A stretch of 55,900 bases of DNA, from NCBI GenBank assembly GCA_001725415.1, contig MEGH01000026.1:150038-205937 (forward strand). The letters run 5' to 3'. The position numbers and the translations under genes were made by a program. The stretch's first letter is position 1, and each line of letters opens with the position of its first letter. Under the pieces are notes generated by a model, which ran no database searches, was not told the origin of the DNA, and saw nothing but the letters and a program-made list of their open reading frames with translations. This stretch comes from Pseudonocardia sp. SCN 73-27 (lineage in GTDB: Bacteria > Actinomycetota > Actinomycetes > Mycobacteriales > Pseudonocardiaceae). Below, piece after piece: positions 1,342 through 20,347 of the stretch.

Positions 1342-1387
1342 GACGTTAGAAAATGTCGTCGGGGGGCTGTTGTCCCGCGGTGGGACA
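1342..1387 (-). promoter_or_regulatory. Operator TGTCCC-N5-GGGACA with -10 for the DUF1330-SDR operon
   Basis: Positions 1371-1387 read TGTCCC GCGGT GGGACA, a perfect 6-5-6 inverted repeat. On the minus strand a TAACGTC element (1348 to 1342) follows exactly 22 bp after the repeat. If TAACGTC is the -10 region, the repeat is centred near -43, the classic class II activator position. The same arrangement recurs at 10235, 19314 and 20302. Confidence 0.75.
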
Positions 1388-1390
1388 GGC

Positions 1391-2344
1391 TCAGCCGGGA
1401 ATCGTGAGTACGAGCTTGCCCGTGGTCCGGCCGGTCTCACCCTGACGGTGTGCGTCGGCCGCCGACGCCAGCGGGAACGTCGAGTCGACGACGACCTGGA
1501 GCTTCTTCTCGTCGACCAGAGCGGTGAGTTCGGCGAGCCCGGTGCGGTCGGGCTCGACGAGCATCCAGGTCACGCGGACGCCGTCTCGGCTGGGCATCAG
1601 CGACGAGTCGAACCCGGGTGGCGGGATGATGCTCACGAGGATGCCGCCTTCGCGCAGGGTGCTCAGCGAACGTCCGGTGACGTCTCCACCGAGGGTGTCG
1701 AGTACGACGTCGACGTCGGACACGACATCGGCGAAGTCCTGTGTCCGGTAGTCGACGAGCTCGTCGGCACCCAGTCCGCGCAGGATGTCGTGCTTGGCCG
1801 CGCTGGCCGTACCGATGACGTATGCGCCGCGCGCCTTCGCGATCTGGACCGCCAGGTGGCCGACACCCCCCGCCGCGGCGTGGACGAGCACGCGCTGGCC
1901 GCTCGCGAGGGCGGCGGTGTCGACGAGCGCCTGCCAGGCGGTGAGGCCGGCGAGCGGAAGCGCTGCACCGTGAACGGCGTCGAGGCTTTCCGGGCGCGCG
2001 GTGAAGTGCCGGGCCGGGCCCGTCACGAACTCGGCATATGCGCCGGCCGGGCGGGGGAAGCGCGGCATCCCGATGACCTTGTCGCCGGGCGCGAAGATCG
2101 TCACGCCGGGCCCGACGGCCTCGACGATGCCGGAGACGTCGAAGCCGAGGGTGAACGGGGGCTTCTCGTCGTGGTAGAAGTAGCCACGGCCGCGGGTCTT
2201 CCAGTCGGTCGGGTTGATCCCTGCCGCCTCCACCCGCACGAGAATCTCCGTGGGCCCGGCCTCCGGTCGTTCGTGGTCGACGAGTGTCAACACCTCGGGA
2301 CCGCCCGCGCGGTCCTGGCTCATCGCCTTCATCGTCTCGCTCAT
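1391..2344 (-). CDS. NADP-dependent quinone oxidoreductase-like MDR protein
   Basis: Zinc-free medium-chain dehydrogenase/reductase of the quinone oxidoreductase (QOR) type, 317 residues, the usual length. The GroES-like N-terminal half contains GINPTDWKTRGRG and the GFDVSGIVEAVG segment. The nucleotide-binding half shows VHAAAGGVGHLAVQIAK, the NADPH motif, around residue 150. It lacks the cysteines of zinc alcohol dehydrogenases. The start at 2344 is chosen because GGGAG precedes it and a TTGACA/TACGGT promoter lies just upstream. The frame continues upstream only as antisense shadow of the hydroxylase gene. It is divergent from the Mo-hydroxylase operon and shares the operator between them, suggesting a reductase step in the same pathway. 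Confidence 0.9.
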   Translation of the reverse strand: MSETMKAMSQDRAGGPEVLTLVDHERPEAGPTEILVRVEAAGINPTDWKTRGRGYFYHDEKPPFTLGFDVSGIVEAVGPGVTIFAPGDKVIGMPRFPRPAGAYAEFVTGPARHFTARPESLDAVHGAALPLAGLTAWQALVDTAALASGQRVLVHAAAGGVGHLAVQIAKARGAYVIGTASAAKHDILRGLGADELVDYRTQDFADVVSDVDVVLDTLGGDVTGRSLSTLREGGILVSIIPPPGFDSSLMPSRDGVRVTWMLVEPDRTGLAELTALVDEKKLQVVVDSTFPLASAADAHRQGETGRTTGKLVLTIPG

Positions 2345-2400
2345 GGCATCTCCCTGTCGACCTCGGAATGCCGACCGGGCGACGGTCGGCTGTCGACCGG

Positions 2401-2430
2401 ACCGTAGGAGTGGGCTCTCCAGGGTGTCAA
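2401..2430 (-). promoter_or_regulatory. Sigma70-like promoter of the quinone oxidoreductase gene
   Basis: On the minus strand TTGACA (2430 to 2425) is separated by 18 bp from TACGGT (2406 to 2401), a good housekeeping-type promoter with a predicted start near 2395. The shared operator at 2446-2462 lies upstream of this -35 box. The gene may therefore be controlled differently from the divergent hydroxylase operon. Confidence 0.55.
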
Positions 2431-2445
2431 CGTGCGGGAACGTCC

Positions 2446-2491
2446 CGTCCCAACTTGGGACAACCCGCTCCCCGGGGTGCCTGCCAGCGTT
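2446..2491 (+). promoter_or_regulatory. Operator and putative promoter of the Mo-hydroxylase operon
   Basis: Positions 2447-2461 read GTCCCAA C TTGGGAC, a perfect 7-1-7 palindrome and the most symmetrical copy of the regulon operator. A degenerate -10 (CAGCGTT, 2485-2491) follows 22 bp after GGGACA. This predicts a transcript start at about 2497, immediately before the GTG at 2498. Confidence 0.65.
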
Positions 2492-2497: not shown

Positions 2498-3409
2498 GTG
2501 AAGCCACCACCGTTCAGCTACCACCGCGGCCGCACCGTCGAGCACGCCGCGGAGCTGCTGCGCGAACTCGGGCCGAGTGCCCGGCTGCTCGCCGGCGGCC
2601 AGTCCCTGCTGCCGATGCTCAACCTGCGACTCGCCGAGCCGGCACACCTCGTGGACCTCGGTTCCGCACCTGGCCTCGACGTCATCCGCCGCGACGGCGA
2701 CATGCTGGTCGTCGGTGCCACAGCGCGGCAGGCCGCGGTGGAGCATTCCTCCGACGTCCGCGCGCTCGTGCCGCTGCTCGCCGAGGCCGTCGAGCATGTG
2801 GCCCACCCTCCCATCCGGCACCGCGGGACGGTGGTCGGCAGCATCGCGCACGCGTCAGCCGTGGCGGAGCTGCCCTGCGCAGCCGTTGCGCTGAATGCGC
2901 AGCTGACGTTGCTCAGCGCCGATGGCGTTCGGACGGTCGGGGCCGAGGAGTTCTTCACGGGCGCCTTCACCACATCGGCACGTGCCGACGAGATCGTCGC
3001 CCAGGTCGCGTTCCCGGTGACCGGGCCCGGTACCGGTCAGGCGTGGTCGGAATTCAGTCTGCGGCGCGGCAACTTCCCGGTCGCCGGCGCCGGCGCGAGC
3101 GTCACCGTCGCCGACGGCGAGATCGTCGACGTCGCGATCGCGATCTGCGGTGTGTCCGATCGACCTGTCCGGGCCCGTGCCGCCGAGGCGGCGCTGCTCG
3201 GAACCAGGCCCGGCCCGGAGGTCGTCGCCGCTGCCGCCGCCGCGTCGATCGCGGACCTCGCTCCGCGCGTCGACGGGGACCTCGCCGCACACATCCTGCC
3301 GGTCGTCGCGGCGCCCGTTCCTGCCTGGGGGTACCGCGCATCCGTCGCGAAGTCCCAGGTCCGCCGGGCCGTGACGACCGCCCTGACCCGCGCCGGAGGC
3401 GTGCGATGA
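2498..3409 (+). CDS. Molybdenum hydroxylase, FAD-binding medium subunit
   Basis: The flavin subunit of a xanthine-oxidase/CO-dehydrogenase-type enzyme, passing electrons from the FeS subunit to FAD. The 303-residue protein carries the first FAD loop AGGQSLLPMLNLRLA around residue 33 and a second loop near GTVVGSIAHASAVAELP. The C-terminal CODH flavoprotein domain follows. The GTG at 2498 has no Shine-Dalgarno sequence, but it coincides with the predicted transcript start, so a leaderless mRNA is plausible. An ATG further upstream (2432) would place the operator inside the gene and is rejected. It overlaps the next gene by 4 bp (ATGA) and forms an M-S-L order typical of cox-like loci. Confidence 0.9.
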   Translation: MKPPPFSYHRGRTVEHAAELLRELGPSARLLAGGQSLLPMLNLRLAEPAHLVDLGSAPGLDVIRRDGDMLVVGATARQAAVEHSSDVRALVPLLAEAVEHVAHPPIRHRGTVVGSIAHASAVAELPCAAVALNAQLTLLSADGVRTVGAEEFFTGAFTTSARADEIVAQVAFPVTGPGTGQAWSEFSLRRGNFPVAGAGASVTVADGEIVDVAIAICGVSDRPVRARAAEAALLGTRPGPEVVAAAAAASIADLAPRVDGDLAAHILPVVAAPVPAWGYRASVAKSQVRRAVTTALTRAGGVR

Positions 3410-3942
3410 CTGCGACCCACGAATCGGCGGCCGGGCTCGGTGAGATCGACACCGACCCCGCCGCACTGCACCCGATCACGATCACCGTCAACGGCACGAC
3501 GCACCGGCTGGCGGTCGAGGGCCGTCGGCTGCTCGTCGACGTGTTGCGCCAGGACCTGCGGCTGACCGGTACGCACACCGGGTGTGACCAGGGTGTCTGT
3601 GGTGTCTGCACGGTGCGGCTCAATGGCGCCACGGTGAGGTCGTGCATCACTCTCGCCGTACAGGCCGATGGCGCCGAGGTCCGGACCATCGAGGGCGTCG
3701 CTCCCGACGCCCGGACGTTGCATCCGATCCAACAGGCGTTCTGGGAGAAGCAGGGCCTGCAGTGTGGGTTCTGCACTCCCGGGATGGTGTTGCGTGTCCA
3801 GGAGATCCTGGAGCAGAACCCCTGCCCGACCCGGGCGCAGGTCCGGGAAGGGATTTCCAGCAACCTGTGTCGCTGCACCGGCTACCAGTTCATCGTCGAC
3901 GCCACGGTCGAGGCGGCCGAGCGGATGGCGGAGGGTTCTTGA
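3406..3942 (+). CDS. Molybdenum hydroxylase, [2Fe-2S] small subunit
   Basis: Iron-sulfur subunit, 178 residues, slightly longer than usual because of an N-terminal extension of about 20 residues. The plant-type ferredoxin cluster motif is GCDQGVCGVCTVRLNG near residues 60-75. The second cluster domain shows CGFCTPGM and NLCRCTGY near residues 120-155. All eight cysteine ligands appear to be present. It transfers electrons from the molybdenum site to FAD. It overlaps both neighbours (ATGA with the FAD subunit, TGATG with the large subunit), so stoichiometric co-translation is expected. Confidence 0.95.
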   Translation: MTATHESAAGLGEIDTDPAALHPITITVNGTTHRLAVEGRRLLVDVLRQDLRLTGTHTGCDQGVCGVCTVRLNGATVRSCITLAVQADGAEVRTIEGVAPDARTLHPIQQAFWEKQGLQCGFCTPGMVLRVQEILEQNPCPTRAQVREGISSNLCRCTGYQFIVDATVEAAERMAEGS

Positions 3943-6398
3943 TGAGCCAGACCACAGACAGTCATGCTGACGTGCCGGCGCCGATGGCCCCGCACAAGGA
4001 CATGAAGTGGATCGGCAAATCCGTCAAGCGGGTCGAGGACCCCAAACTGCTCCGCGGACTCGGCCGCTACATCGACGACGTCGTGCTGCCGGGAATGCTG
4101 CACGCGGCCGTCCTGCGCAGCCCGCACGCGCATGCGCGGATCGTCTCCGTCGACGCCGAGCGGGCCCGTCGGGCACCCGGCGTCGTCGCGGTCCTGACCG
4201 GGCCCGAGGCTGCCGAGCAGTTCGGCCCACTGCCCGACTCCGGACCGGCCCCCGACAAGCACGTCTGGCGTGTGCTGGCCGCTGACAAGGTTCACTACGT
4301 CGGCGAAGGCGTCGCGGTCGTCGTGGCGGAGAACCGCTACCAGGCCGAGGATGCCCGCACCCTCATCGACGTCACCTACGACGTCCTCGAGCCCGTCGTC
4401 GACCCGATCGCTGCGGCCGAGGACACCGGCAACCTCGTTCACGAGGCCTTGGGCACGAATGTCGCGTACGAGCGGACGTTCACGTTCGGCGACGTCGCCC
4501 ACGACTTCGCCGACGCAGATCTCGTCGTCCGGGACCGGCTGCGCTGGGGCCGTCAGACCGCGCACCCCCTCGACACCACGGCCGCGATCGGCGACTACGA
4601 CGCGGGCACCGGCGAGATGGTGGTGCACACCAACAGCATCAGCATGACCTGGCTGGCGTTCGGCGCGGCAGTCGCGCTCGGTATCCCCAGCAACAAGCTC
4701 GACCTTCGGCCCTACATCTCCGGCGGCAGCTTCGGTTCCAAGCAGTTCTGCTGGCGATCGACGGTCACCGCGGCGATGATGTCCAAGATCACCGGCCGGC
4801 CCGTCAAATATGTCGAGGACCGGCTCGACCACCAACTCAACGGTGACCAGCACGGGTCCGACCGCTACTACGACGTCGAGCTCGCGCTGATGCGCGACGG
4901 TACGTTCCGCAGCCTGAAGATCGACTGTGTGGACGACTACGGCGCCTACATCCAGTTCGGGGTCGGATCCCATGGGAATGCGCTCGCTCAGGTGACGGGG
5001 CCCTACCGGATCACCAGCACCGAGTATCGCGTGCGTGCGGTCCTGACGAACAAGACCCAGCAGGGCGCCTATCGCGGCTTCGGTGCCGATGCCGGGAACT
5101 GGGCCCTCGAACGCATCGTCGACAAGGCGGCCGCGGAACTGGGTCTCGACCCGGCCGACATCCGGCGCCGCAACCTGATCCCGCCGGACGCGTTCCCCTA
5201 CCACATCCCCAGCGGCAACATGTACGACTCGGGCAACTACGAACCGGTGCTCGACCACGCCCTGCAGCGGTTCGACTACGACGGCTGGCGCCGCAAGCAG
5301 GAGGCGATGCGCGCCGAGGGCCGCAAGATCGGCATCGGCGTCGTCACCGCGAACGAACGCAGCGTCTACGGTGCCACCGAGTTCTGGTTCTGGTTCGACG
5401 ACAAGGATGTTCCGGTCAAGACCACCTCCACGCCGGAGGGTGTGTCGATGACGGTGGACACCGTCGGCGCGGTCACCGTGACGCTGTACTCGACCCCGTT
5501 CTGGGGCAACAGCTCCGACACCGTTGCGGCGATGCTCGCCGCCGAGGAGTTCGACGTCGACCCGGCCGATGTCAGTGTCGTGCACCACGGCACCAAGGGT
5601 GGCCTGCCCGCAGCGGGGCCCGGGGGAAGCCGGCTCACGGTGATGCTCGCGGGCGCGATCACCGGCGCCTCGAAGAAGATCAAGGACAAGCTCCGGCGGA
5701 TCGCCGCCCACGACATGGAGGTCGACGAAGCCGACCTCGAGTGGGTCGACGGTGGCTATCAGGTCCGCGGGGCCGAGGACTCGCGGCGCAGCATCGGTGA
5801 CCTCGCGATGCTCGCCTATCTGGTCAAGACCGCCCTGCCGGATGGCGAGGAGAGCGGTCTCGCGGCCGACTTCGTCTACGACCACCCGCACCTGACGATG
5901 CCCAAGCCCGACCGCAGCGACCTCGGATCGTTCTACCCGTGTGTCGGGCACGCGTGTCATCTGGTCGCCGTGGAGGTCGACGAGGAGACCGGATCGGTCG
6001 ACATCCTCGACTACGTCGCCGTGCACGACTCGGGCACGCTGGTCAACCCGCGGTCCTACGACGGCCAGATCGTCGGCGGCACCGCGCAGGGCGTCGGGAC
6101 CGCACTGGCGGAGGAGATGACCTACGACGCGGCTGGCAACCCGCTGGTCGGCACGTTCTGGGACTACCTGATCCCGACCGCGCTCGACGTGCCCGAGGTG
6201 AACTTCGGCCACGAGGAGACGCCGTCGCCGATCACGGCCCACGGGATCAAGGGGGGCGGTGAGGCGGGCCGCCTGATGGCCCCCGGGGCCCTCTCCGCCG
6301 CCATCGACGATGCACTGCGCGACCACGGTGTGCGGGTGACCGAGCTACCGGCCACCCCCGAGCGGATCGTCGGCTGGATCCAGGGTCACAGGGGCTGA
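3942..6398 (+). CDS. Molybdenum hydroxylase, molybdopterin-binding large subunit
   Basis: The catalytic subunit, 818 residues, the usual length for this family. It contains YISGGSFGSK (the variant of GGGFGGK) and AYRGFGAD near residue 376 where the Mo site lies. Near residue 770 GIKGGGEAG supplies the base Glu. The form I CO-dehydrogenase signature AYXCSFR is absent, so this is not a classical CO dehydrogenase. Hydroxylation of an N-heterocycle, aldehyde or other activated carbon is more likely. No Tat signal is visible, so a cytoplasmic enzyme is expected. It is followed after one base by an SDR gene, and CoxD/CoxE-like maturation genes lie downstream in the same operon. Confidence 0.92.
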   Translation: MSQTTDSHADVPAPMAPHKDMKWIGKSVKRVEDPKLLRGLGRYIDDVVLPGMLHAAVLRSPHAHARIVSVDAERARRAPGVVAVLTGPEAAEQFGPLPDSGPAPDKHVWRVLAADKVHYVGEGVAVVVAENRYQAEDARTLIDVTYDVLEPVVDPIAAAEDTGNLVHEALGTNVAYERTFTFGDVAHDFADADLVVRDRLRWGRQTAHPLDTTAAIGDYDAGTGEMVVHTNSISMTWLAFGAAVALGIPSNKLDLRPYISGGSFGSKQFCWRSTVTAAMMSKITGRPVKYVEDRLDHQLNGDQHGSDRYYDVELALMRDGTFRSLKIDCVDDYGAYIQFGVGSHGNALAQVTGPYRITSTEYRVRAVLTNKTQQGAYRGFGADAGNWALERIVDKAAAELGLDPADIRRRNLIPPDAFPYHIPSGNMYDSGNYEPVLDHALQRFDYDGWRRKQEAMRAEGRKIGIGVVTANERSVYGATEFWFWFDDKDVPVKTTSTPEGVSMTVDTVGAVTVTLYSTPFWGNSSDTVAAMLAAEEFDVDPADVSVVHHGTKGGLPAAGPGGSRLTVMLAGAITGASKKIKDKLRRIAAHDMEVDEADLEWVDGGYQVRGAEDSRRSIGDLAMLAYLVKTALPDGEESGLAADFVYDHPHLTMPKPDRSDLGSFYPCVGHACHLVAVEVDEETGSVDILDYVAVHDSGTLVNPRSYDGQIVGGTAQGVGTALAEEMTYDAAGNPLVGTFWDYLIPTALDVPEVNFGHEETPSPITAHGIKGGGEAGRLMAPGALSAAIDDALRDHGVRVTELPATPERIVGWIQGHRG

Positions 6399-6399
6399 G

Positions 6400-7158
6400 A
6401 TGGGGCGACTGGACGGCAAGATCGCCCTGGTCACGGGCGCCGGCCGGGCCCCCGGTCGCGAGCTGGCCACGCGGCTGGCGCGGGACGGGGCTGCACTGAT
6501 CCTGGTCGACCACGATGACGACGACCCGTCGGCTGCGGTCGACCTGATCTCGACCGCGGCGGTCGTGCAGGCGCTCGGCGGGCGGGTCGTGACCCATGAC
6601 GTCGACGTGGTCGACATGTCGGCACTCACCGCCGCAGTGACTGCAGGCGTCCGGCGCTTCGGTGGGCTCGACGCCGTCGTGGTCGGTCCTGTCTTCACAG
6701 CGCCGTGCTCGGTCGAGGCGACTGCGGACGAAGCGTGGCACGACGCCCTCGACCGGGTTCTGACCGGAGTGTGGAACGTCTGCTGCGCAGCGCTGCCCCA
6801 CCTGACAGATGGCGGATCCCTGACCGTCGCAGGCACCGCCGCCGGGCTGCGTGGGTTCGCGCATCTGGCGCACCAGGCGGCGGCCGAGCACGGCGTCGTC
6901 GGGCTGGTGCGTTCGCTGGCCCACGAGCTCGCCCCGCGGTCGATCCGTGTCAACAGTGTCCATCCCGTTGCCGACGCCGGCGCGACGCCGGCGGGCGGTC
7001 TCGTGGGCAACCTCGTCTTCGTTCCGGAGCCGGAGGTCCCACCCCAGTTCGCGGAGGCGCGAGACGTGTCGGAGACGGTCGTGTACCTGGCGTCGGACGA
7101 CGCCCGTCTGCTCACCGGGCTGACGGTGCCCGTCGCAGCGGGGCTGGTGTCGCGGTGA
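6400..7158 (+). CDS. Degenerate short-chain dehydrogenase paralogue
   Basis: SDR-fold protein, 252 residues, clearly related to the mycofactocin-type SDRs of this locus (GRLDGKIALVTGAG at the N-terminus and VYLASDDARLLTG near the end). The catalytic residues are missing. The usual NAG is replaced by VVGPVF, and the YSAAK segment reads QAAAE before HGVVGL. The nucleotide-binding glycines are altered to TGAGRAPG. It starts one base after the large-subunit stop and overlaps the epoxide hydrolase gene by 4 bp, so it is retained in a tight operon. A structural or binding role, or a redesigned active site, is inferred; ordinary SDR catalysis looks unlikely. Confidence 0.85.
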   Translation: MGRLDGKIALVTGAGRAPGRELATRLARDGAALILVDHDDDDPSAAVDLISTAAVVQALGGRVVTHDVDVVDMSALTAAVTAGVRRFGGLDAVVVGPVFTAPCSVEATADEAWHDALDRVLTGVWNVCCAALPHLTDGGSLTVAGTAAGLRGFAHLAHQAAAEHGVVGLVRSLAHELAPRSIRVNSVHPVADAGATPAGGLVGNLVFVPEPEVPPQFAEARDVSETVVYLASDDARLLTGLTVPVAAGLVSR

Positions 7159-8333
7159 GCGCCCCTGTCGAGCCGTTCGTGGTCGCAGTTCCCGATGAGG
7201 TCCTCGATGACGTGCGCCAGCGACTCCTGCGCACCCGCTGGCCCATCGATGTCGGCAACGACGACTGGCGCTACGGCGCCAACCGCGCCTACCTGGAGGA
7301 ACTCGTCGCCTACTGGCTCGACGACTACGACTGGCGCGAGCACGAGCGGCGGATGAACCGCCACGCCCACTTCCGGACCACGATCGACGACGTCCCGATC
7401 CACTTCGTACACGAGCGCGGCGTCGGTCCCGCCCCGGTTCCGCTGGTGCTCACGCACGGCTGGCCGTGGACGTTCTGGGACTTCGAGCACGTGATCGGAC
7501 CGCTCACCGACCCAGCCGCGCACGGCGGCGACCCGGCCGACGCGTTCGACGTCGTCATTCCCTCACTCCCAGGGTTCGGCTTCTCGGTTCCGTTGCAGCG
7601 CACCGGGATCAACTTCCATCGCACCGCCGGGCTGTGGGACACGCTCATGCGGGACCGGCTCGGCTACGACAGGTACGCCGCCCAGGGCGGCGACTGGGGC
7701 CAGCTGGTGACCTCGGAGCTGGGACACCGCCACGCCGAGCACCTGATCGGGATCCACCTCAACCTGTCGCTGCCGCTGGACTTCTTCGAGGCGGCGCTGC
7801 CGGCCGAGGAGGACTACGCCCCCGACGAACGGCACTGGTACCACCACACCCAGGCCCGGATGGCGCATGCGACGAGCCACATCGCCGTCCAGAGCACCGA
7901 CCCGCAGAACCTCGCCTACGCCATGCACGACTCGCCCGTGGGCCTGCTGGCCTGGCTGGTGGATCGGCGCCGGTGGTGGAGCGACTGCGACGGTGACGTC
8001 GAGTCCCGTTTCTCCAAGGACGACCTCATCACCCTCGCGATGCTGTACTGGGTCGGCGAGAGCTTCGTGACGAGTGCCCGCTTCTACTGGGAGGCGCGCA
8101 ACGACCTCTGGAAGGCCGCGTCGACCGGCACACCCGTCGTCACCGCACCCACCGGGATCGCTGTGTTCCCGCAGGAGCTGCTCGTCATGCCGAAGGCGTG
8201 GATGGAGCGCTACTACGATCTGCGGAGGCTCACCTACATGAAGTCGGGCGGGCACTTCGCCCCCGCCGAGGAGCCGGCCGCGCTCGTCGAGGACGTCCGT
8301 GAGTTCTTCAGGCCGCTGCGGGCCGGCCGATGA
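7155..8333 (+). CDS. Epoxide hydrolase (EHN-domain alpha/beta-hydrolase)
   Basis: Hydrolase of the microsomal epoxide hydrolase-like family, 392 residues. An N-terminal EHN domain (VPDEVLDDVRQRLLRTRWP, then YLEELVAYW) precedes the alpha/beta-hydrolase core. The core shows HGWP for the oxyanion hole and GGDWGQ with the nucleophilic Asp near residue 180. A C-terminal catalytic His sits in KSGGHFAP. The GTG start overlaps the upstream stop (GTGA) and the ATGA at the end overlaps the MoxR gene. The enzyme would open an epoxide to a diol, or hydrolyse a similar strained ring or lactone. It is likely an internal step after molybdenum-dependent hydroxylation. Confidence 0.9.
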   Translation: MSAPVEPFVVAVPDEVLDDVRQRLLRTRWPIDVGNDDWRYGANRAYLEELVAYWLDDYDWREHERRMNRHAHFRTTIDDVPIHFVHERGVGPAPVPLVLTHGWPWTFWDFEHVIGPLTDPAAHGGDPADAFDVVIPSLPGFGFSVPLQRTGINFHRTAGLWDTLMRDRLGYDRYAAQGGDWGQLVTSELGHRHAEHLIGIHLNLSLPLDFFEAALPAEEDYAPDERHWYHHTQARMAHATSHIAVQSTDPQNLAYAMHDSPVGLLAWLVDRRRWWSDCDGDVESRFSKDDLITLAMLYWVGESFVTSARFYWEARNDLWKAASTGTPVVTAPTGIAVFPQELLVMPKAWMERYYDLRRLTYMKSGGHFAPAEEPAALVEDVREFFRPLRAGR

Positions 8334-11189: not shown

Positions 11190-11197
11190 TGATCCGT

Positions 11198-12463: not shown

Positions 12464-14939
12464 CGACACCATCGTCGATCTGCAGCCCGCGCTGCGGATC
12501 GACCACGTGACGAAGACGTTCCCGGGTGTGGTCGCCCTCGACGACGTCGACCTGACGGTCCGCGCGGGCGAGGTCCACGGGATCGTCGGCGAGAACGGCG
12601 CCGGCAAGTCGACGCTCATGGCGGTGGCGTCCGGCGCCCTGGTGCCGGAGGCAGGCTCCGTCTCGGTCTGCGGTCGGTCGCTGCGCCCCGGTTCCACGCA
12701 CGACGCGCAGGAGCTCGGTGTAGCGATCGTGCTGCAGGAGCCCGCCCTGCTGCCCGACCTCACCGTCGCGGAGAACATGTACCTCGGGCAGCCACCGACG
12801 GCGCGGCCACCGATCGGGCAGCTGCGGGCGTGGAGCCGGGACCGGTTGTGCGACTGGAGCGACGACGTCGGCATCGACCCCGACGCACGGATCGAGGAGC
12901 TCGAGCCCGAGCAGCGGTTCATCGTCGACATCGTTCGGGCGCTCGCGCGCAGGCCGGCGGTGCTCGTGCTCGACGAGCCCACCGAACACCTCGCCGGTGA
13001 GGACGTCGAACGACTGTTCGCGGCGGTGCGGGAGCGGGTGCGCGACGGCGGCGCCGTCGTCTACATCTCGCACCGGATCCGCGAGGTCAAGCAGATCGCC
13101 GACCGGATCAGCGTGCTGCGTGACGGCTGTCATCGCGGCACCTTCGACGCGGCCACGCTGTCGGAGCGCGACATCGTCGACCTCATCGTCGGTCGACGGC
13201 TCGACGCCGTCTTCCCGGACAAGCCCGGGCCGGCCGGTGGGGACACCCCGGTCCTGGCCGTCGAGTCGGTGAGCGGCCGCGGGTTCGAGGACCTGACGTT
13301 CACCCTGCGGCCCGGCGAGATCATCGGTTTCGCCGGAATCGAGGGCAACGGTCAGCGCGACGCCCTGCGGGCGCTGGCCGGGCTCGGCCACCGCAGCGGA
13401 GGGGTCGAGGTCGACGGCGAAGGGGTCCGGCGGAGGTCGTCGGCGGTCGCGTACCTGACCGGCGACCGGCACCGCGAAGGTGTGTTCCCCGGGCTGACCG
13501 TCCGGGAGACGATCGGCCTGCGCAACCTCGACAGGTTCAGCACCCTCGGCGTGGTCGAGCCACGCCGGGAACGCGAGTTCGCAAGGACCGCGGTCGCGGA
13601 TCTCGCCGTGAAGACCCCGACCATCGAGACACCGATCGAGTCGCTGTCGGGGGGCAACCAGCAGAAAGCCCTGCTCGCGGGTGTGCTGCGTCGCGACCCA
13701 CGGGTGCTGCTGATCGACGAGCCGACACAGGGTGTCGACGTCGGCGCCAAGTCCGAGATCTACGACCTGTTGCGCGACAACGCCCGTGATCGGGGGATGG
13801 GCGTCGTCGTGGTCTCCTCGGACGGGATCGAACTGGCCGGGCTGTGCGACCGGGTCCTCATCTTCTCGCGCGGGCACGTCGTGGAGGAGCTCGCGGGTGA
13901 CGACGTGACCGAGGCCCGGATCACCGGGGCGGCACTGACCGCGACGACACATCGCGACAAGGCCGGCGACCGCGCCGGCTCGGTCGTCCGCTGGTTCGCG
14001 GGGGACACCGCGCCGATCGCGATGGTCGCGCTCGCGGTACTGGGACTCGGAATCTGGACGTCGTTGTCGAGCGCCTTCTACCTCACGACGCCGAGCATCG
14101 CCGGGCTGCTCGCGCTCGTCGCGGTGCTGGGCTTCGTGGCGCTCGGCCAGACCGTCGCACTCACGATCGGTGCCGTCGACCTGTCGGTCGGCCCACTGAT
14201 GGGCTTCGTGGTCGTCGTCCAGTCGTTCTTCCTGACGGCCGAGTCGATGCCGCTCGACAGGGTGCTGGGCTGGGTGCTGCTGTTCGGTGTGCCCCTGGCC
14301 GTCGGCCTGGTGAACTGGGCGCTCGTCGATGTCGTGAAGATGAACGCGATCGTCGCGACGCTGATCACCTTCATCGCGCTCCAGGCGCTGTCGCTGGTGC
14401 TGCGGCCTCAGCCGGGCGGGCTGTTCGACAGCCGCATCACCGACGCGTTGACGTTCACGGTCGGACCGATCCCGGCCGCGTTCCTCGCGTTGCTCCTCGT
14501 CGCCGGGGCGCTGCAGTTCTGGCTGCGGCGCAGCCGGACCGGCATCGCACTGCGATCGGTCGGCTCGCAGCCCGACGCGGCCCGGCTCAACGGCCTCAGC
14601 GCCCCGCGGGTCCGGCTCATCGGCTTCCTGTTGTGCAGTCTCCTCGCAGGGCTCGCAGCGTTGTTCCTGCTGGCCCAGGTCGGCTCGGGTGACCCGACAT
14701 CGGGCATCGACTACACGTTGACCAGCATCTCGGCCGCGGTGATCGGTGGCGCGAGCATCTTCGGCGGCCGCGGATCCTTTGTCGGCACCGTCGCGGCTGC
14801 GTTCCTCGTGACCCAGGCCATCGGGGCGGTGACCTTCCTCGGGCTCGACGCCGCGTGGTCGTCGTACCTGCCTGGGGCGATGACGCTGATCGCAGTGGCC
14901 GTCTACTCGCGCACCCGGCACCTCGCACGCACACACTGA
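12456..14939 (+). CDS. Fused ABC importer ATPase-permease (RbsA-RbsC type)
   Basis: An 827-residue fusion. Residues 1 to about 500 are a double ABC ATPase of the ribose-importer type. The first cassette has Walker A GENGAGKST and LVLDEPTEHL. The second has a degenerate P-loop (GIEGNGQRD), intact signature SLSGGNQQK and LLIDEPTQGVDVGAK. From about residue 510 the chain continues into a hydrophobic RbsC-type permease with the characteristic GAVDLSVG loop and some eight to ten membrane segments. In most relatives these are separate genes. The fusion ties one permease half permanently to the ATPase, and the separate permease downstream supplies the other half. The start is GTG inside the lipoprotein gene. 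Confidence 0.93.
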   Translation: MADDTIVDLQPALRIDHVTKTFPGVVALDDVDLTVRAGEVHGIVGENGAGKSTLMAVASGALVPEAGSVSVCGRSLRPGSTHDAQELGVAIVLQEPALLPDLTVAENMYLGQPPTARPPIGQLRAWSRDRLCDWSDDVGIDPDARIEELEPEQRFIVDIVRALARRPAVLVLDEPTEHLAGEDVERLFAAVRERVRDGGAVVYISHRIREVKQIADRISVLRDGCHRGTFDAATLSERDIVDLIVGRRLDAVFPDKPGPAGGDTPVLAVESVSGRGFEDLTFTLRPGEIIGFAGIEGNGQRDALRALAGLGHRSGGVEVDGEGVRRRSSAVAYLTGDRHREGVFPGLTVRETIGLRNLDRFSTLGVVEPRREREFARTAVADLAVKTPTIETPIESLSGGNQQKALLAGVLRRDPRVLLIDEPTQGVDVGAKSEIYDLLRDNARDRGMGVVVVSSDGIELAGLCDRVLIFSRGHVVEELAGDDVTEARITGAALTATTHRDKAGDRAGSVVRWFAGDTAPIAMVALAVLGLGIWTSLSSAFYLTTPSIAGLLALVAVLGFVALGQTVALTIGAVDLSVGPLMGFVVVVQSFFLTAESMPLDRVLGWVLLFGVPLAVGLVNWALVDVVKMNAIVATLITFIALQALSLVLRPQPGGLFDSRITDALTFTVGPIPAAFLALLLVAGALQFWLRRSRTGIALRSVGSQPDAARLNGLSAPRVRLIGFLLCSLLAGLAALFLLAQVGSGDPTSGIDYTLTSISAAVIGGASIFGGRGSFVGTVAAAFLVTQAIGAVTFLGLDAAWSSYLPGAMTLIAVAVYSRTRHLARTH

Positions 14940-14952
14940 CACGGAGACGTCG

Positions 14953-15963
14953 ATGAGCAACTCGTTGAGCGACCCGGAGCAGGTCGCCACCGTCGACCTG
15001 GATGTGAGCCCACCGCAGCGCAGACCCCGGGTCGCAGGCCCCTACACCGGCATCATCCTGGCGACGTGTGCACTGTTCGTCCTGAGCGCGATCATCGTGC
15101 CGAAGTCCCTGTCCGCGCAGTCGCTGGGGGCGATGCTGCCGTTCTGGGCGATCCTCGCGATCATGTCCGTGGGCCAGACCCTGGTCATCCAGCAACGCGG
15201 TATCGATCTCTCCATCCCCGGCGTGGTCAGCCTGACCGCAATGGGCTTCGTCGTGTTCGTCGACCGCAACGACACGTCGGTGTTCCTCGGGCTCGTCGTC
15301 GTGGTCATCGCCGGTGTCGTCATCGGCCTGGTCAACGGACTGATCATCACCAAGATCAACGTGACGCCGCTGATCACGACCCTGGCGCTCAACGCGCTGC
15401 TGGTCGGCGCGATGTTCAGCTACACCAAGGGCGTCGGGTCGGCGGCGCCGGCGAGCCTGCAGGCCTTCACGGCCTCGAGCTTCCTCGGCCTGTCGACGCT
15501 GGTGTGGCTCGCGATCGGGACGGTTCTGCTCGTGGGCTTCGTGTTGCGGCAGACAGCTGTCGGGCGGCGGTTCGTCGCCGTCGGGTCCAACCCGGACGCG
15601 GCGCGGGCCATCGGTGTCCGGGTCGACGTCTACATCGTCGGTGCCTACATCGCAGCCGCGCTGCTGTTCGCGCTCGCCGCGGTGCTGCTCGCCGGCTATG
15701 CCCAGAACCCTGCGCCGACCATGGGCAACTCCTACCTGTTCCAGACCGTGATGGCCGTGGTCATCGGCGGTACGAGCCTCGCCGGTGGACGTGGCAGCGT
15801 GTTCGCGACCGCCGTGGCAGCCCTGTTCCTCACCCAGCTCGGACAGGTCGTACTCACACTGGGCGCCAACGCCGCAGTGCAGCTGCTCGTCCAGGCCGTC
15901 GCGATGGCCCTCGCGCTGGCGGGTGCCGCGGTGCTCAACCGGCGGCGGGCGCGCTCCACATGA
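14953..15963 (+). CDS. ABC importer permease (RbsC type)
   Basis: Membrane permease of 336 residues with multiple hydrophobic segments and the family loop RGIDLSIPG. NPDAARAIGVRVD and GGTSLAGGRGS are further RbsC landmarks. It pairs with the permease half of the fused ATPase protein to form the translocation channel. A short polar N-terminal tail of about 30 residues precedes the first membrane segment. CGGAG before the ATG serves as ribosome binding site. The gene lies 13 bp after the fusion gene and overlaps the alpha/beta-hydrolase by 4 bp. Confidence 0.93.
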   Translation: MSNSLSDPEQVATVDLDVSPPQRRPRVAGPYTGIILATCALFVLSAIIVPKSLSAQSLGAMLPFWAILAIMSVGQTLVIQQRGIDLSIPGVVSLTAMGFVVFVDRNDTSVFLGLVVVVIAGVVIGLVNGLIITKINVTPLITTLALNALLVGAMFSYTKGVGSAAPASLQAFTASSFLGLSTLVWLAIGTVLLVGFVLRQTAVGRRFVAVGSNPDAARAIGVRVDVYIVGAYIAAALLFALAAVLLAGYAQNPAPTMGNSYLFQTVMAVVIGGTSLAGGRGSVFATAVAALFLTQLGQVVLTLGANAAVQLLVQAVAMALALAGAAVLNRRRARST

Positions 15964-16757
15964 CGACGCTGAGCTGCCATCTGATGGCAGGGCTCCCGCC
16001 GCCCGAGGTGGGTCGCCGGTTGAGCCGGCCCGTCGGGGGATTCCGGCTCGCCTACGACCGATCCGGGAACGGGCCGGCGGTGATGCTCCTGCACGGCGGG
16101 CACGGTGACCGCACGGACTGGGCGGATGTCGCGGTCCAGCTCGACGCCACCGTCGTCGTCCCCGATCTGCGGGGAGTGGGTGAATCCGACCGATGGCCCC
16201 ACGGCGACGTCTCTGTGCCTGCCCAAGCCGCCAGTGTGGTCGGGCTGATCGACGAGCTGCGCCTCGGTCGTGTGGTCCTCGGTGGCTACGGGGTGGGAGC
16301 CGCCGTCGCACGTCTCGTTGCGGCACGACACCCGAGGAACGTGGCGGGGCTGGTCATGACGCCACCTCCGCACGTACCGGCGCGAGCGGTCACCGGGACC
16401 GCGAAGGACATCGTGCGCAGAAGCTGGACGAACTGGTCCGCGCCGCGGTTCGTCCCGGACCGAGACCGGCTCGAGCACCTCGCGCAGCAGCACGACCGTC
16501 GTCTGCTCGTGATGGCGGAGAACGTTTCCCCACCTCAGGAGGCGGAGGTCGTGACCGTCCCGACGACGATCTTGTGTCCTCAGCTCGACCCACTGGTACC
16601 GGCGACGTGGTTCGACCGCCTTGCAGAGCGCTTCCGCCGGGTGAGGGTGCGCGGCCTGCCAGGGGTCGGGCACTTCGTCCCGGTCGAAGCGCCCATGGCG
16701 TTCGTCGAGGCACTCAACGCCACGCTCTCGGAAAGGAAAGATCGACATGCAACCTGA
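15960..16757 (+). CDS. Alpha/beta-hydrolase fold protein lacking the Ser nucleophile
   Basis: Alpha/beta-hydrolase of 265 residues with VMLLHGGHGDRTDW for the oxyanion region, VPDLRGVGESD, a late Asp in CPQLDPLVP and a C-terminal His in GVGHFVPVE. The nucleophile elbow, usually GxSxG, reads GGYGVGAAV (GGC TAC GGG GTG GGA), so Gly replaces the Ser. The Asp and His positions are kept. The gene overlaps both neighbours and shows no sign of decay. Possible explanations are a lyase or cofactor-free reaction using only the His, or a non-catalytic binding role. The assignment of fold is secure and the function is unknown. Confidence 0.85.
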   Translation: MTTLSCHLMAGLPPPEVGRRLSRPVGGFRLAYDRSGNGPAVMLLHGGHGDRTDWADVAVQLDATVVVPDLRGVGESDRWPHGDVSVPAQAASVVGLIDELRLGRVVLGGYGVGAAVARLVAARHPRNVAGLVMTPPPHVPARAVTGTAKDIVRRSWTNWSAPRFVPDRDRLEHLAQQHDRRLLVMAENVSPPQEAEVVTVPTTILCPQLDPLVPATWFDRLAERFRRVRVRGLPGVGHFVPVEAPMAFVEALNATLSERKDRHAT

Positions 16758-17484
16758 GAAGGCGTCGCTCGGTGGCTGGTGCCACCTCGCGTCTCCGTTC
16801 TCCGTCGAGCTCATGGCATCGGTCGGGTTCGACTGGTGCTGTCTCGACATGCAGCACGGCACGATCCGGATCAGCGATGTCATCGGAGCGCTGCAGGCTG
16901 TCCGGGCTGCGGCCGGAACGGCCTATGTGCGCGTCCCCGGTGACGACGCCGCGCTGATCGGGGCGGTCCTCGACGCCGGCGCCGACGGTGTGTTCATCCC
17001 TCAGGTGTCGACCGCCGAGCAGGCGCGGGCGGCCGTCGGGGCCTGCCGGTACTCCCCGGACGGTGCCCGCAGCTGGGGACCGTTGCGTCCGAAGCTCACG
17101 ACCGCCCGCCCCGACCCCGCAGTCCTGGGCGCCGCGCCCTGCTACGTGATGATCGAGGACCGGGCCGGAGTGGAGAACGTCGCCGCGATCGCCGCCGTCC
17201 CGGGTGTGACGGGCATTCTCGCAGGGCCGGCGGACCTCGCGCTGGACCTCTACGGCGACCCGTATCTCGCATCGGACCCACGAACCGTCGACGCCCTGAT
17301 GCCGGTCGTCGTCGCATGTCGGGACAACGGGATCACCGCGGGCGTCTTCTGCGGCACCGGCAACGTGGACCGCTGGCACACTGCAGGCTTCGCGATGCTG
17401 GCCGTGGAATCCGACACCACTCTTCTGCTGACCGCGGCTCGACGGGCGGCTGCGGACGCCCGGGCACAGCTCGACAGTGTCTGA
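16747..17484 (+). CDS. HpcH/HpaI-family aldolase
   Basis: Class II pyruvate aldolase-like enzyme, 245 residues, TIM-barrel. It contains DMQHG near residue 37 (metal/substrate region), GADGVFIPQVSTAEQA, the substrate loop YSPDGARSWGP, MIEDRAG with the metal-binding Glu, and GPADLALDLYGDP. Family members split 4-hydroxy-2-oxo acids into pyruvate and an aldehyde, with a divalent metal. It is expected to act late in the pathway. The ATG overlaps the hydrolase stop by 11 bp and is preceded by AAAGGAAAG. Confidence 0.9.
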   Translation: MQPEKASLGGWCHLASPFSVELMASVGFDWCCLDMQHGTIRISDVIGALQAVRAAAGTAYVRVPGDDAALIGAVLDAGADGVFIPQVSTAEQARAAVGACRYSPDGARSWGPLRPKLTTARPDPAVLGAAPCYVMIEDRAGVENVAAIAAVPGVTGILAGPADLALDLYGDPYLASDPRTVDALMPVVVACRDNGITAGVFCGTGNVDRWHTAGFAMLAVESDTTLLLTAARRAAADARAQLDSV

Positions 17485-17496
17485 CCATCCCGGACG

Positions 17497-17523
17497 CCGG
17501 CCCCGACCCCGATCCCGGGCCGG
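17497..17523 (+). terminator. GC hairpin after the aldolase gene
   Basis: CCGGCCC (17497-17503) pairs with GGGCCGG (17517-17523) around a 13-base loop, directly between the aldolase stop and the DUF421 ATG. It has no T-tract, so it may act as an attenuator or be incidental. Confidence 0.35.
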
Positions 17524-17526
17524 GGC

Positions 17527-18093
17527 ATGACGGCCTCGGCCGAGCTCGGTGTCGATCTGCGAACCGCGGGCCTCGTGGTCGTCGCGACCCTCGGCATCTA
17601 CCTGGCTCTCCTGGTGTGTGTACGGGTCTGCGGTCAGCGCAGCCTGGCGGCGATGTCCGCGACCGACGTCGCGTGCGTCATCGCACTCGGCGCGGTCGTC
17701 GGGCGGACCACACTCCTGGCGACGCCGACCCTGACGACGGGAGTGATCGCTCTCGCGATGCTCTTCGCCGTACAGCGGTCGTTGTCGCTGCTGCGCCGCA
17801 ACCGCGTACTGAGCCGGGTTCTCGCTCGTGAACCCGTGTTACTGGTCCGGGCCGGCCTGGTGCAGCGAGACGGACTGCGCCGCGCGCGGATGAACGAGGA
17901 CGACCTGCGGCAGCGGCTACGAGTAGCGGGTGTGGCGAGGCTGGCCGATGTCGACTGTGTCGTGCTCGAGCGCAACGGAGTCGTGAGTGTCCTGCGGGCA
18001 GGTCCGGACGCCGACCCGTGGCTGATGGCCGACGTGCCCGGCTACGACGAGCAGTACCAACATGGGACAACGCGGCCGCAGCGCACCGGCTGA
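17527..18093 (+). CDS. DUF421 (YetF-like) membrane protein
   Basis: A 188-residue protein with about three N-terminal membrane segments followed by a soluble C-terminal domain. It matches the DUF421/YetF pattern: GQRSLAAMSATDVACVIALG in the membrane part, then EPVLLVRAGLVQRDGLRRARMNEDDL and a V-L-E-R-N-G-V segment in the domain. YetF-like proteins are poorly understood and are not normally part of catabolic operons. Here it sits between the aldolase and the zinc alcohol dehydrogenase on the same strand. It may be a passenger or may influence membrane handling of the substrate. Confidence 0.82.
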   Translation: MTASAELGVDLRTAGLVVVATLGIYLALLVCVRVCGQRSLAAMSATDVACVIALGAVVGRTTLLATPTLTTGVIALAMLFAVQRSLSLLRRNRVLSRVLAREPVLLVRAGLVQRDGLRRARMNEDDLRQRLRVAGVARLADVDCVVLERNGVVSVLRAGPDADPWLMADVPGYDEQYQHGTTRPQRTG

Positions 18094-18130
18094 TCCTCAA
18101 CCCGTCGAAGTCGGTGAGGGGAGGACCATT

Positions 18131-19237
18131 GTGCCGGAGAACGACGCGGTGATGGGGTCGGTGGCCGCGCTGGTCGGTCGCGGGGCGGTCGAGGTGCAGA
18201 ACTACCCGGTCCCGGCAACGGGGCCGGGCGAGGCGTTGTTGGAGATCCTGCAGGCCAACGTGTGTGGCTCCGATGTCGGCATCTACCACCACCGCAACCC
18301 CGTCCTGCGCGATGTCGTGCTCGGCCACGAGTTCGTCGCCCGTGTCGCGGTGCTGGGGGAGGGGCTCACGCATGACTCCGCGGGCACACCGGTTGCGGTG
18401 GGCGACCGCGTCGTCGTCGTGTACTTCCGGGTGTGCGGACGCTGCCGGGCGTGCGGACGGGGCGAGTTCAACATGTGTGTGAACTGGGCGGACACGATGG
18501 CGGTGCCACCGACGCAAGCCCCGCACTTCCACGGTGCGTTCGCCAGCCACTACCACCTCTCCGCCGGTCGGCACTTCTACGTCGTCCCGGACGGCCTGAC
18601 CGATGCCGAGGTCGCAGGCGCCAACTGCGGCCTCGCACAGATGCTGTTCACCCTGGAACGGATCGGTGTGCGGCGGGGGCAGAACGTCGTCGTACAGGGA
18701 TGCGGCGGTCTCGGGCTCTACGCGTGCGCTGTCGCGGCACGGTCGGGAGCGCGGGTGATCGCGGTCGAACGCGACCCGGACCGGATCGCGGCGGCGGCCC
18801 GTTTCGGCGCCGGCGATGTCGTCGACATGAGGATCGACGTCAGCGACGGCGACCGGCTGTCGCGGGTCGCCGAGCTGACCGATGGCGACGGGGCCGACCT
18901 CGTCATCGAGGTCACCGGTCGCCCGGCGGCGTTCGCCGAGGCCGTCGCCTTCGCACGGACGGGCGGCACGATCGCCTCGGTCGGCAACCTCGGTGTCGGC
19001 CCCGGCGCCGAGCTGTCGATCACGCCGGCGTCGTTCACCCGCAAGAACCTCACCGTGCGGGGGTTCCTCCGCTACGACCCGTGGTACCTGCGCCGCGCGC
19101 TCGACTTCCTTCTCGACACCCGCGATCTCCATCCCTACGGATCGTTGTCCGATCGTGTCTACTCCCTCGACGAGATCGACACCGCGATTCTCCGGACCGA
19201 ATCCGGAGGGGCGATGCGGGCCGCCGTCGTCCCGTGA
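18131..19237 (+). CDS. Zinc-dependent alcohol dehydrogenase (MDR family)
   Basis: Medium-chain zinc dehydrogenase, 368 residues. The catalytic zinc ligands are in VCGSDVG and LGHEF. The structural zinc site is the four-Cys loop CGRCRACGRGEFNMC. The nucleotide-binding motif is VQGCGGLGLYA. The GTG at 18131 is chosen because GGGGAGG lies at the correct distance. An upstream ATG at 18062 overlaps DUF421 by 32 bp and lacks a Shine-Dalgarno sequence. Related enzymes oxidise polyols, threonine or cyclic alcohols with NAD(P). It is the last gene of the importer operon. Confidence 0.88.
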   Translation: MPENDAVMGSVAALVGRGAVEVQNYPVPATGPGEALLEILQANVCGSDVGIYHHRNPVLRDVVLGHEFVARVAVLGEGLTHDSAGTPVAVGDRVVVVYFRVCGRCRACGRGEFNMCVNWADTMAVPPTQAPHFHGAFASHYHLSAGRHFYVVPDGLTDAEVAGANCGLAQMLFTLERIGVRRGQNVVVQGCGGLGLYACAVAARSGARVIAVERDPDRIAAAARFGAGDVVDMRIDVSDGDRLSRVAELTDGDGADLVIEVTGRPAAFAEAVAFARTGGTIASVGNLGVGPGAELSITPASFTRKNLTVRGFLRYDPWYLRRALDFLLDTRDLHPYGSLSDRVYSLDEIDTAILRTESGGAMRAAVVP

Positions 19238-19313
19238 CGGCCGGGAGCGCGCGAGTTCCTCCCCGCGCGTGCACGCGTCCGCTCCGAACAGCGTGCGAGG
19301 GTCGGGCAGCGAT

Positions 19314-19359
19314 CGTCCCAAGTCGGGACACCTGGTCAGGCAGCTGCGTCCCTAACGTC
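19314..19359 (+). promoter_or_regulatory. Operator and -10 of the isomerase gene
   Basis: CGTCCC AAGTC GGGACA (19314-19330) is the regulon inverted repeat. TAACGTC (19353-19359) starts exactly 22 bp after it. The gene start at 19410 leaves a leader of about 45 bases. Confidence 0.72.
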
Positions 19360-19409
19360 GGATTCGGATCAACCGATGGTGCCGAGCAATGGCAGCAGGA
19401 GGCGTAGGG

Positions 19410-20279
19410 ATGAACAGGAGCAAGAGAGTGACGGAACCGGGTGTGATCCTCGGATACGGCAACCTCGTCGGTGTCTCCTTCGAGGAGCGGGTGGCCGCGG
19501 CCGCGGCGGCCGGCGCCGACGCGATCGGGTACTCCGTGTTCGAGTTCCAGGACGCCCGCCGCGCGGGGATCACCGCGAAGGAGCTGGCGGGAATCGCCGA
19601 GCGGTCGGGTATCCGGGTCGCGGAGCTGGAGATCGGTCTGGGATTCGACGGCCCCGCAGACGGTCGACGATGGCAACCCACCGGCTTCCCCTGGGATCTG
19701 CCCTACATGGACGCGGGCGTCGAGCAGGACCTGATCGAGCTCGCCGGCGCCTTCGGGGCGCACCACGTCGTCGTCGCGGCATCCACGGGTGGCCAGGGGA
19801 CGGCGTCCACCGCCCGCTTCGCGCGGCTCTGCGACCGCGCTGCCGAGGTAGGGGCGAAGGTGGCCATCGAGTTCCTTCCGGGAACCGACATGCCCGACAT
19901 CGCAAGTGCGCTGGCCGTGGTCGAGGCCGCCGACCGCGACAACGGCGGGCTCTGCGTGGACAACTGGCACTTCATGCGGGGCAACCGCGACGACGCGGCC
20001 CTGCAGTCGTTGCCGGCGGATCGGGTCGTCGTCGTGCAACTCTCGGACGGCCCGGTCGCGCCCCGGACGGACGACTACTTCGAGGAGACGCTCAGACATC
20101 GCATGCTGTTCGGCGACGGTGACTGGGATGTGGCGGGGTTCCTCGCGACGCTGCGCGGCACCGGCACGACTGCGCCGGTGTCGATCGAGATCCTCTCCGA
20201 ACACTGGCAGGGCCGGCCGGTCCTCGAAACGGCCAAGGCGTTCGTGGCAGCCGCTCGTGCGCTCGAGAGTCCTGCCTGA
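19410..20279 (+). CDS. Sugar phosphate isomerase/epimerase-like TIM-barrel protein
   Basis: AP-endonuclease-2/xylose-isomerase-like barrel of 289 residues. Likely metal ligands are the Glu in KVAIEFLPGTD, the Asp in CVDNWHFMRG, and the Glu in SIEILSEHW, consistent with a divalent-metal isomerase or dehydratase. The ATG at 19410 has AGGAGG eight bases upstream, so the earlier ATG at 19389 is rejected. It is a single gene under its own operator, between the importer operon and the second lipoprotein operon. Candidate roles are keto-enol isomerisation or dehydration of a pathway intermediate. Confidence 0.85.
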   Translation: MNRSKRVTEPGVILGYGNLVGVSFEERVAAAAAAGADAIGYSVFEFQDARRAGITAKELAGIAERSGIRVAELEIGLGFDGPADGRRWQPTGFPWDLPYMDAGVEQDLIELAGAFGAHHVVVAASTGGQGTASTARFARLCDRAAEVGAKVAIEFLPGTDMPDIASALAVVEAADRDNGGLCVDNWHFMRGNRDDAALQSLPADRVVVVQLSDGPVAPRTDDYFEETLRHRMLFGDGDWDVAGFLATLRGTGTTAPVSIEILSEHWQGRPVLETAKAFVAAARALESPA

Positions 20280-20301
20280 CGGGCCTGCCACCCGGGCGGT
20301 T

Positions 20302-20347
20302 CGTCCGAACTCGGGACAACTCGTCGGCCGGCTCGGTCCATAACGTC
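20302..20347 (+). promoter_or_regulatory. Operator and -10 of the second lipoprotein-BKACE operon
   Basis: CGTCCG AACTC GGGACA (20302-20318) is the regulon repeat with one left-arm mismatch. TAACGTC (20341-20347) starts exactly 22 bp after it. Confidence 0.7.

Follow-up and report, generated by a model that had tools for sequence, protein, structure and literature searches.

A putative palindromic operator at a fixed distance from the -10 element, and its candidate AcoR-like activator, in a catabolic gene cluster of Pseudonocardia sp. SCN 73-27

Results

Inverted repeats before the genes of a catabolic cluster

We have analysed a stretch of 55,900 nucleotides (the window, C26:150038-205937, 71.7% G+C) from the genome of Pseudonocardia sp. 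SCN 73-27 (6.95 Mb in 99 contigs, 99.99% complete), in which the inverted repeat TGTCCC-N5-GGGACA stands before the genes of a catabolic cluster (Table 1). A first-pass annotation had placed six such repeats between genes, and all six are present, with two coordinates shifted by one (to 2446 and 11197). The repeats at 1371 and 11197 are exact, those at 2446, 10235 and 19314 contain one mismatch, and that at 20302 contains two. As also claimed, TA[AC]CGTC is found exactly 22 bp past the repeat at four sites, three on the plus strand (10235, 19314 and 20302) and one on the minus strand (1371), where the box points toward the gene presumably served. Gene coordinates were taken from a small hexamer-based caller and their start codons are approximate. 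The intergenic status of the repeat at 2446, whose minus-strand side faces a zinc-type dehydrogenase gene (1391-2344), assumes that this gene starts at 2344; the raw caller runs it over the repeat, a start at 2344 already yields the full alcohol dehydrogenase protein, and a start at 2498 yields the full FAD subunit on the other side.

A position matrix was then scanned over the window and two further stretches, L016 (upstream of the window, with coordinates numbered within that stretch) and L017. The scan gave 15 operator-scoring places, 12 of them intergenic and none in L017, and TANSGTC stands at 22 bp in seven of the 15 (L016 4983+, 11939- and 12453+; window 1371-, 10235, 19314 and 20302); the matrix was trained on units picked for their -10 element, so that these counts are descriptive and not a test. 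Thus the fixed -10 spacing described earlier holds at a good part of the sites and not at all of them, and the proposed single regulon, its activator bound near -43, is supported with a corrected extent, the regulon being larger than the window shows and having more sites upstream. Three matrix sites (17310, 18053 and 37196) were dropped because they lie in coding sequence without a -10 element. Among 22 operator-promoter units from five genomes, the downstream GGGACA half is nearly invariant save at position three, where 17 of 22 have G, and [AC]C directly follows it in all 22. The upstream half begins with C in nine of the 22. TTGACA-N18-TANNNT promoters occur on the plus side of L016 15881 and on the minus side of 2446, with their -10 elements beginning 50 and 39 bp past the operator, respectively. 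L016:12507-12836 encodes a short aldehyde dehydrogenase fragment (110 amino acids, 35 residues of which match the middle of PF00171) that is probably a gene remnant.

Table 1. Candidate regulator, operators, -10 elements and target genes (window coordinates unless a contig or stretch is named)
Feature	Position	Strand	Description
AcoR-like Fis-type regulator	C26:147415-149166		583 residues; AAA lid PF25601 and Fis helix-turn-helix PF02954
Operator TGTCCCACCGCGGGACA (minus-strand reading)	1371..1387	-	Exact palindrome; arms invariant in four species
-10 element TAACGTC	1342..1348	-	22 bp from operator; putative promoter of 913-1278 and the mycofactocin-coupled short-chain dehydrogenase/reductase (SDR) gene 45-911
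Operator CGTCCCAACTTGGGACA	2446..2462	+	Precedes CO-dehydrogenase-like molybdenum hydroxylase operon; arms and centre identical in three species
Operator TGTCACATTCCGGGACA	10235..10251	+	Precedes SDR gene 10347-11189; all 17 bases identical in four species
-10 element TACCGTC	10274..10280	+	Spacing 22
Operator TGTCCCAGAGCGGGACA	11197..11213	+	Exact; precedes sugar-type ABC transporter operon (11336 onward); arms invariant in four species
Operator CGTCCCAAGTCGGGACA	19314..19330	+	Precedes TIM-barrel enzyme gene 19410-20279
-10 element TAACGTC	19353..19359	+	Spacing 22; identical in four species
Operator CGTCCGAACTCGGGACA	20302..20318	+	Precedes genes of substrate-binding protein 20399-21517 and BKACE enzyme 21547-22479
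-10 element TAACGTC	20341..20347	+	Spacing 22
Target operon	45..1278	-	Mycofactocin-coupled SDR (TIGR03971, above cut-off) and small protein without Pfam match
Target operon (predicted extent)	2498..10230	+	FAD, FeS and Mo subunits of CO-dehydrogenase-like hydroxylase; genes for an SDR, an epoxide-hydrolase-like protein, a MoxR-type ATPase and a VWA/CoxE-like protein
Target gene	10347..11189	+	Mycofactocin-coupled SDR, TIGR03971 above cut-off
Target operon (predicted extent)	11336..19237	+	Substrate-binding protein, ABC ATPase/permease, permease, hydrolase, HpcH aldolase, DUF421, zinc alcohol dehydrogenase
Target genes	19410..22479	+	AP_endonuc_2 enzyme, second substrate-binding protein, BKACE enzyme
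Upstream operator	L016 11939	-	TANSGTC at 22
Upstream operator	L016 14417	-	CGACGAT at 22, kept
Upstream operator	L016 15881		Common to two divergent genes; minus side [TC]GACCAT at 22, kept
Weaker operator	L016 4960	-	Two mismatches; no TA box at 22
Weaker operators	L016 4983 and 12453	+	Three mismatches each; TANSGTC at 22

Genome-wide counts

Loose matches to the repeat are not above shuffles (31 sites with three mismatches in the window, compared with a shuffle mean of 46), so the case rests on the strict sites. These were counted across the genome by pattern searches, with the backwards-read pattern as control. Only four exact sites occur in 6.95 Mb, and this cluster holds three of them. 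If up to one mismatch is allowed, there are 22 sites genome-wide versus eight for the backwards pattern, and seven of the 22 fall within 27.4 kb (C26:141976-169367), where 0.06 is expected from the background rate. Outside the cluster, 14 of the 15 sites were inspected (C39:94889 was excluded); eight are in coding and six in intergenic sequence, and none of the 14 has TANNNT at 22 bp on either side. When the spacing was left free, GGGACA-N(12-32)-TAMCGTC matched six times in the whole genome (twice for the backwards control). Four of these matches have a spacing of 22, all in the cluster, and the other two have spacings of 19 and 23. These searches do not bear out the possibility, raised in the first-pass annotation, that the motif is equally frequent in random intergenic DNA of this genome.

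Conservation in relatives

Five orthologous operator promoters were compared in four species. The operator arms are identical in 98.1% of 360 pairwise cells, a figure against which it counts that sites in relatives were located by a scan allowing at most two mismatches, which favours conserved arms. In the same comparison the -10 heptamer is 90.5% and the operator centre 84.7% identical, and identity is 54.2% in the upstream flank, 53.3% in the spacer and 51.5% in the downstream stretch. The other five operator site groups have arms that are 100% identical and spacers that are 39-77% identical. Some flanks are well conserved too (85% upstream at 11197 and 86% downstream at 15881+). Every promoter compared across relatives had its operator site. 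In P. sp. N23 the three molybdenum hydroxylase genes and their operator are both missing, and the adjacent operators are kept.

P. sp. N23 also carries, between its orthologues of 19410 and 20399, a gene block (L077:5107-8948) without counterparts here, and both operators are kept. In three alpha/beta hydrolase genes of relatives (L134:2718 in P. sulfidoxydans, L075:9956 and L077:2080-2115), TAGCGTC or TAGCCTC stands right before the start codon, and in two of the three an operator-like site lies 22 bp away (a weak one in L077). Upstream of the related alpha/beta hydrolase gene of the present genome (L016:370-1239), a site of this kind was not seen.

The candidate regulator

No regulator gene is present in the window, as was noted at first, and the likely regulator gene ends 872 bp before it. 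It encodes an AcoR-like protein with a C-terminal Fis helix-turn-helix (PF02954, E 4.7e-13). Walker A (GEPGVGK) is kept and Walker B is degenerate. The GAFTGA loop of this regulator is lost, and the pattern G[ASV][FY]TG[AS] was found in none of the 25 regulators examined. The sigma-54 DNA-binding domain PF04552 was not found in this nearly complete genome; the same search was positive in four of 14 named genomes, including E. coli and B. subtilis. The N-terminal part has no Pfam GAF match at E 1e-4, and AlphaFold predictions for three orthologues were poor (pLDDT 47.9). No receiver domain was matched in the regulator by Pfam. The best NCBIfam profile is DhaR, which covers residues 439-572 with 118.8 bits, far under its cut-off of 551.

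It is also evident that the regulator and the sites occur together. Among 62 Pseudonocardia genomes, 36 match the regulator at E 1e-60 or better, and five carry orthologues of at least 60% identity, the remaining matches being at most 39% identical; within the genus, identity to the regulator reaches 94% for the P. sulfidoxydans orthologue, 90% for that of P. dioxanivorans CB1190 and 85% for that of P. sp. N23. GGGACA-N22-TANCGTC is found in 14 of the 62 genomes (four hits for the backwards control). The five orthologue genomes have 4, 4, 4, 1 and 1 hits, all on the contig of the regulator and within about 22 kb, and nine of the 57 other genomes have one hit each. The search proposed earlier, for a conserved regulator gene beside orthologous loci, has yielded an AcoR-like orthologue in five genomes, all of which carry the sites. 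On a contig of draft genome G342, where the regulator is 58-60% identical, the orthologue of the peptidase gene has an exact palindrome next to it, and another site, with two mismatches, has TAGCGTC at 22.

The -10 element

Upstream of 132 genes, a set that includes loci partly picked for the operator, TANNNT was found 50 times in forward and 15 times in reverse orientation, and TANCGT is the commonest class (20). Fifteen of 19 listed TANCGTC cases are operator-linked, in loci that were mostly fetched for the operator; TANCGTC is not exclusive to the regulon and may be a general promoter box. In several related promoters (L134, L075 and the group with TGTCGC half-sites) the start codon follows the heptamer by 5-7 nt, which fits a leaderless transcript and so supports the -10 assignment. 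The heptamers of the four window promoters end 50-66 nt before the called start codon, from which leaders of about 44-61 nt are predicted. No conserved TTGACA was seen in the spacer, either among the 22 units or in the cross-species alignment.

A similar layout beside paralogous regulators

We further searched 41 loci of AcoR-like paralogues (33-39% identity), a subset beyond which more AcoR-like matches exist. Seven perfect TGT-N11-ACA palindromes were found, compared with none in the reversed sequences, and four of the seven are TGTCGCGTTACGCGACA with TASCGTC at 22. When TGTCNC-N5-GNGACA followed by TANCGTC was searched at 21 spacings (12-32) in the 62 Pseudonocardia genomes, all 12 hits, from seven genomes, had a spacing of 22 (backwards control, two hits); several of the 12 are orthologous, so that fewer are independent. 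The layout of repeat and fixed -10 element is therefore present as the first-pass annotation claimed, and it is common to related regulators and not unique to this regulon; one group of paralogues adjoins TGTCGC-N5-GCGACA with a spacing of 22.

In a scan of 397 genomes of the order for the same pattern, two hits come from the present genome and 17 have a spacing of exactly 32. All 17 sites are flanked by an AcoR-like gene and, on their opposite side, by an Amidohydro_2-type gene (assigned by Pfam in five of the 17 and by matching N-terminal sequence in the rest); 13 read TGTCTC-N5-GAGACA and four read TGTCCC-N5-GAGACA. The spacing of 32 equals 22 + 10, about one helical turn more. A 15-bp variant, TGTCCC-N3-GGGACA, lies beside the AcoR-like paralogue on contig C28, before a gene with a BMC domain, and has TACCGTC at 23; with its 3-bp centre, this gives a dyad-to--10 distance of 30.5 bp, the same as at the main operator. 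That paralogue (L019:4995-7174, with Fis helix-turn-helix and AAA lid) is another AcoR-like gene of this genome, and its neighbour encodes a BMC microcompartment shell protein.

The recognition helix reads ISRSSLYRKI in five of five regulators of the TGTCCC group, IARSTLYRKV in three of three of the TGTCGC group (a fourth, the truncated L068, was left out) and [SG]RAT[LI]YRK in 17 of 17 of the spacing-32 group. This suggests, from the sequences compared, that the residues at the start of this helix (RSS, RST or RAT) may read the variable fifth base of the half-site; there are only three helix groups, too few for statistics, and four of the 17 spacing-32 sites have C at the variable base in one half.

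We tentatively propose, at slightly less than even odds, that in this order a former sigma-54 activator family has turned into activators of ordinary promoters, with a TGTCNC-N5-GNGACA dyad 30.5 or 40.5 bp from TANCGTC and the variable base set by the helix. Several results tell against such generality. The order scan gave 22 hits in 21 genomes and five for the backwards control, and three stray hits (spacings 22, 20 and 19) have no AcoR-like gene in the 3-kb stretch. The 17 spacing-32 sites form one orthologous group, so that the spacing of 32 counts as a single conserved promoter and not as 17 independent cases. A phylum scan of 396 genomes gave four other hits, at spacings of 16, 23, 24 and 27, with no enrichment outside the order, and a phylum-wide claim was dropped, as no spacing preference appears there.

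Genes and putative pathway of the cluster

The BKACE enzyme (21547-22479) scores above the cut-off of NF053538 (3,5-dioxohexanoate:acetyl-CoA transferase), and a PF04199 cyclase and an FMO-like monooxygenase accompany it (L016:8629-9627 and L016:3284-4924). Together with the mycofactocin-coupled SDRs, these enzymes hint that the ring of a cyclic polyketone or polyol may be cleaved.

Discussion

We consider it likely, with a probability of roughly 0.8, that a dedicated catabolic activator, namely the AcoR-like Fis-type protein whose gene ends just before the window, has TGTCCC-N5-GGGACA as its operator. Most likely a dimer of the Fis helix-turn-helix would bind the 17-bp palindrome, whose dyad lies 30.5 bp upstream of the TANCGT -10 element, that is, near -43 if the first T is taken as -12. 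The bound dimer would replace the -35 element and contact RNA polymerase carrying a housekeeping-type sigma factor, as a class II activator, and a putative inducer would switch it on by binding at the N-terminal part. Such a layout, with predicted -10 elements and transcript starts, is seen as a spacing of 22 at all 12 genus hits and at seven of the 12 intergenic sites of the cluster. Action as a sigma-54 activator is unlikely because the GAFTGA loop is lost and no sigma-54 was found in the genome; to our knowledge, actinomycetes generally lack sigma-54.

Several observations weigh against the class II activator reading. Five of the 12 intergenic sites lack a TA box at 22 (2446, 11197, and L016 4960, 14417 and 15881). 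At 2446 the heptamer at 22 is CAGCGTT, which is no good -10 element (at 23 in P. sulfidoxydans), and at 11197 it is AAACATT, a weak or absent TA box. Two of the seven boxed sites (L016 4983 and 12453) have three mismatches in the repeat. A separate TTGACA-N18-TAACTT promoter is present on the plus side of 15881, which means that class II action from -43 cannot hold for every site. At the five sites without the box the protein may act differently or not at all.

The palindrome could instead be bound by the GntR/FCD protein encoded at C26:149248-149949, probably as a repressor released by a pathway intermediate. Its gene sits between the AcoR-like gene and the window and is kept in four of the five orthologue genomes. 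We regard this as unlikely. The GntR protein has matches in only four of the 62 genomes (E 1e-30). It has none in G342, where an exact palindrome and a promoter with spacing 22 are retained, a point tempered by the draft state of that genome (90% complete), in which the contig stops directly behind the regulator gene; nor was it matched in G323, G324, G350 or G354, where AcoR-like paralogues adjoin the same layout. Moreover, the site lies upstream of the -10 element with no conserved TTGACA in the spacer, which is the place of an activator, and GntR/FCD operators are generally shorter than this palindrome.

Still less probable is a reading in which an alternative sigma factor of the extracytoplasmic function (ECF) type recognizes the right half GGGACAAC as its -35 element and the CGTC of TANCGTC as its -10 element, the palindrome being incidental. 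CGTC resembles ECF -10 elements, and GG-N-ACA followed by [AC]C is almost invariant in the 22 units. But conservation extends to the left arm (98% over both arms), ECF spacers are generally shorter than 22 bp, and the paralogue group with a spacing of 32 and the same TANCGTC could not be spanned by a fixed sigma footprint. Chance, or a dispersed repeat element without regulatory role, fits the loose matches in the window, which are fewer than in shuffles, but is very hard to credit given that, as first claimed, the geometry goes beyond chance: the strict sites cluster, keep the spacing of 22 (12 of 12 in the genus) and have conserved arms amid diverged flanks.

The regulator resembles the AcoR/DhaR-like bacterial enhancer-binding proteins in the WPGNVREL lid region and the Fis helix-turn-helix. 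Operators of AcoR/DhaR-type enhancer-binding proteins generally lie far upstream. Here, by contrast, the operator is next to the -10 element, the GAFTGA loop is lost, Walker B has degenerated and the host genome gave no sigma-54 hit. The accessible part of PMC10274813 describes enhancer-binding proteins without GAFTGA that act on sigma-70 promoters, namely NtrC of Rhodobacter and of Caulobacter and VpsR of V. cholerae. These proteins share with the present regulator the loss of the sigma-54 loop and sigma-70-type promoters as (here predicted) targets, and the V. cholerae VpsR chain matches the regulator (E 8.5e-06). The regulator would belong with them in having lost the loop and kept an AAA remnant (Walker A and the lid PF25601), its activation of sigma-70 promoters being a prediction from sequence. 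The NtrC proteins are response regulators, whereas the present protein has no receiver-domain match and shares a fixed dyad-to--10 distance with its paralogues.

AcoR-like or mimR genes beside catabolic clusters, including actinobacterial monooxygenase clusters, are reported in the accessible parts of PMC8784404 and PMC8394569, the former stating that what the regulators at one such cluster do still lacks proof by experiment. The MimR-type regulators are alike in that their gene lies beside a catabolic cluster; their pathway is different, and those parts of PMC8784404 and PMC8394569 describe no operator. Among the top-ranked search results in the openly licensed literature, no description of the operator or of the fixed spacing was found. 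Thus activators of sigma-70 promoters without GAFTGA are already known, and the operator with its fixed spacing is new as far as searched.

The AcoR-like regulators compared here, as relics of sigma-54 activators, probably switch on ordinary promoters by binding a dyad near -43 or -53. The mode of action of AcoR-like regulators in actinomycetes has been little studied, and a shared fixed promoter layout would offer a direct route to their targets. It would also let the conversion of an ATP-driven remote activator to a contact activator be tested, and it links one likely regulator to a catabolic cluster that encodes mycofactocin-coupled dehydrogenases as well as a molybdenum hydroxylase. If a grammar of this kind is indeed shared across the family, operators and regulons would be predictable from the regulator sequence alone.

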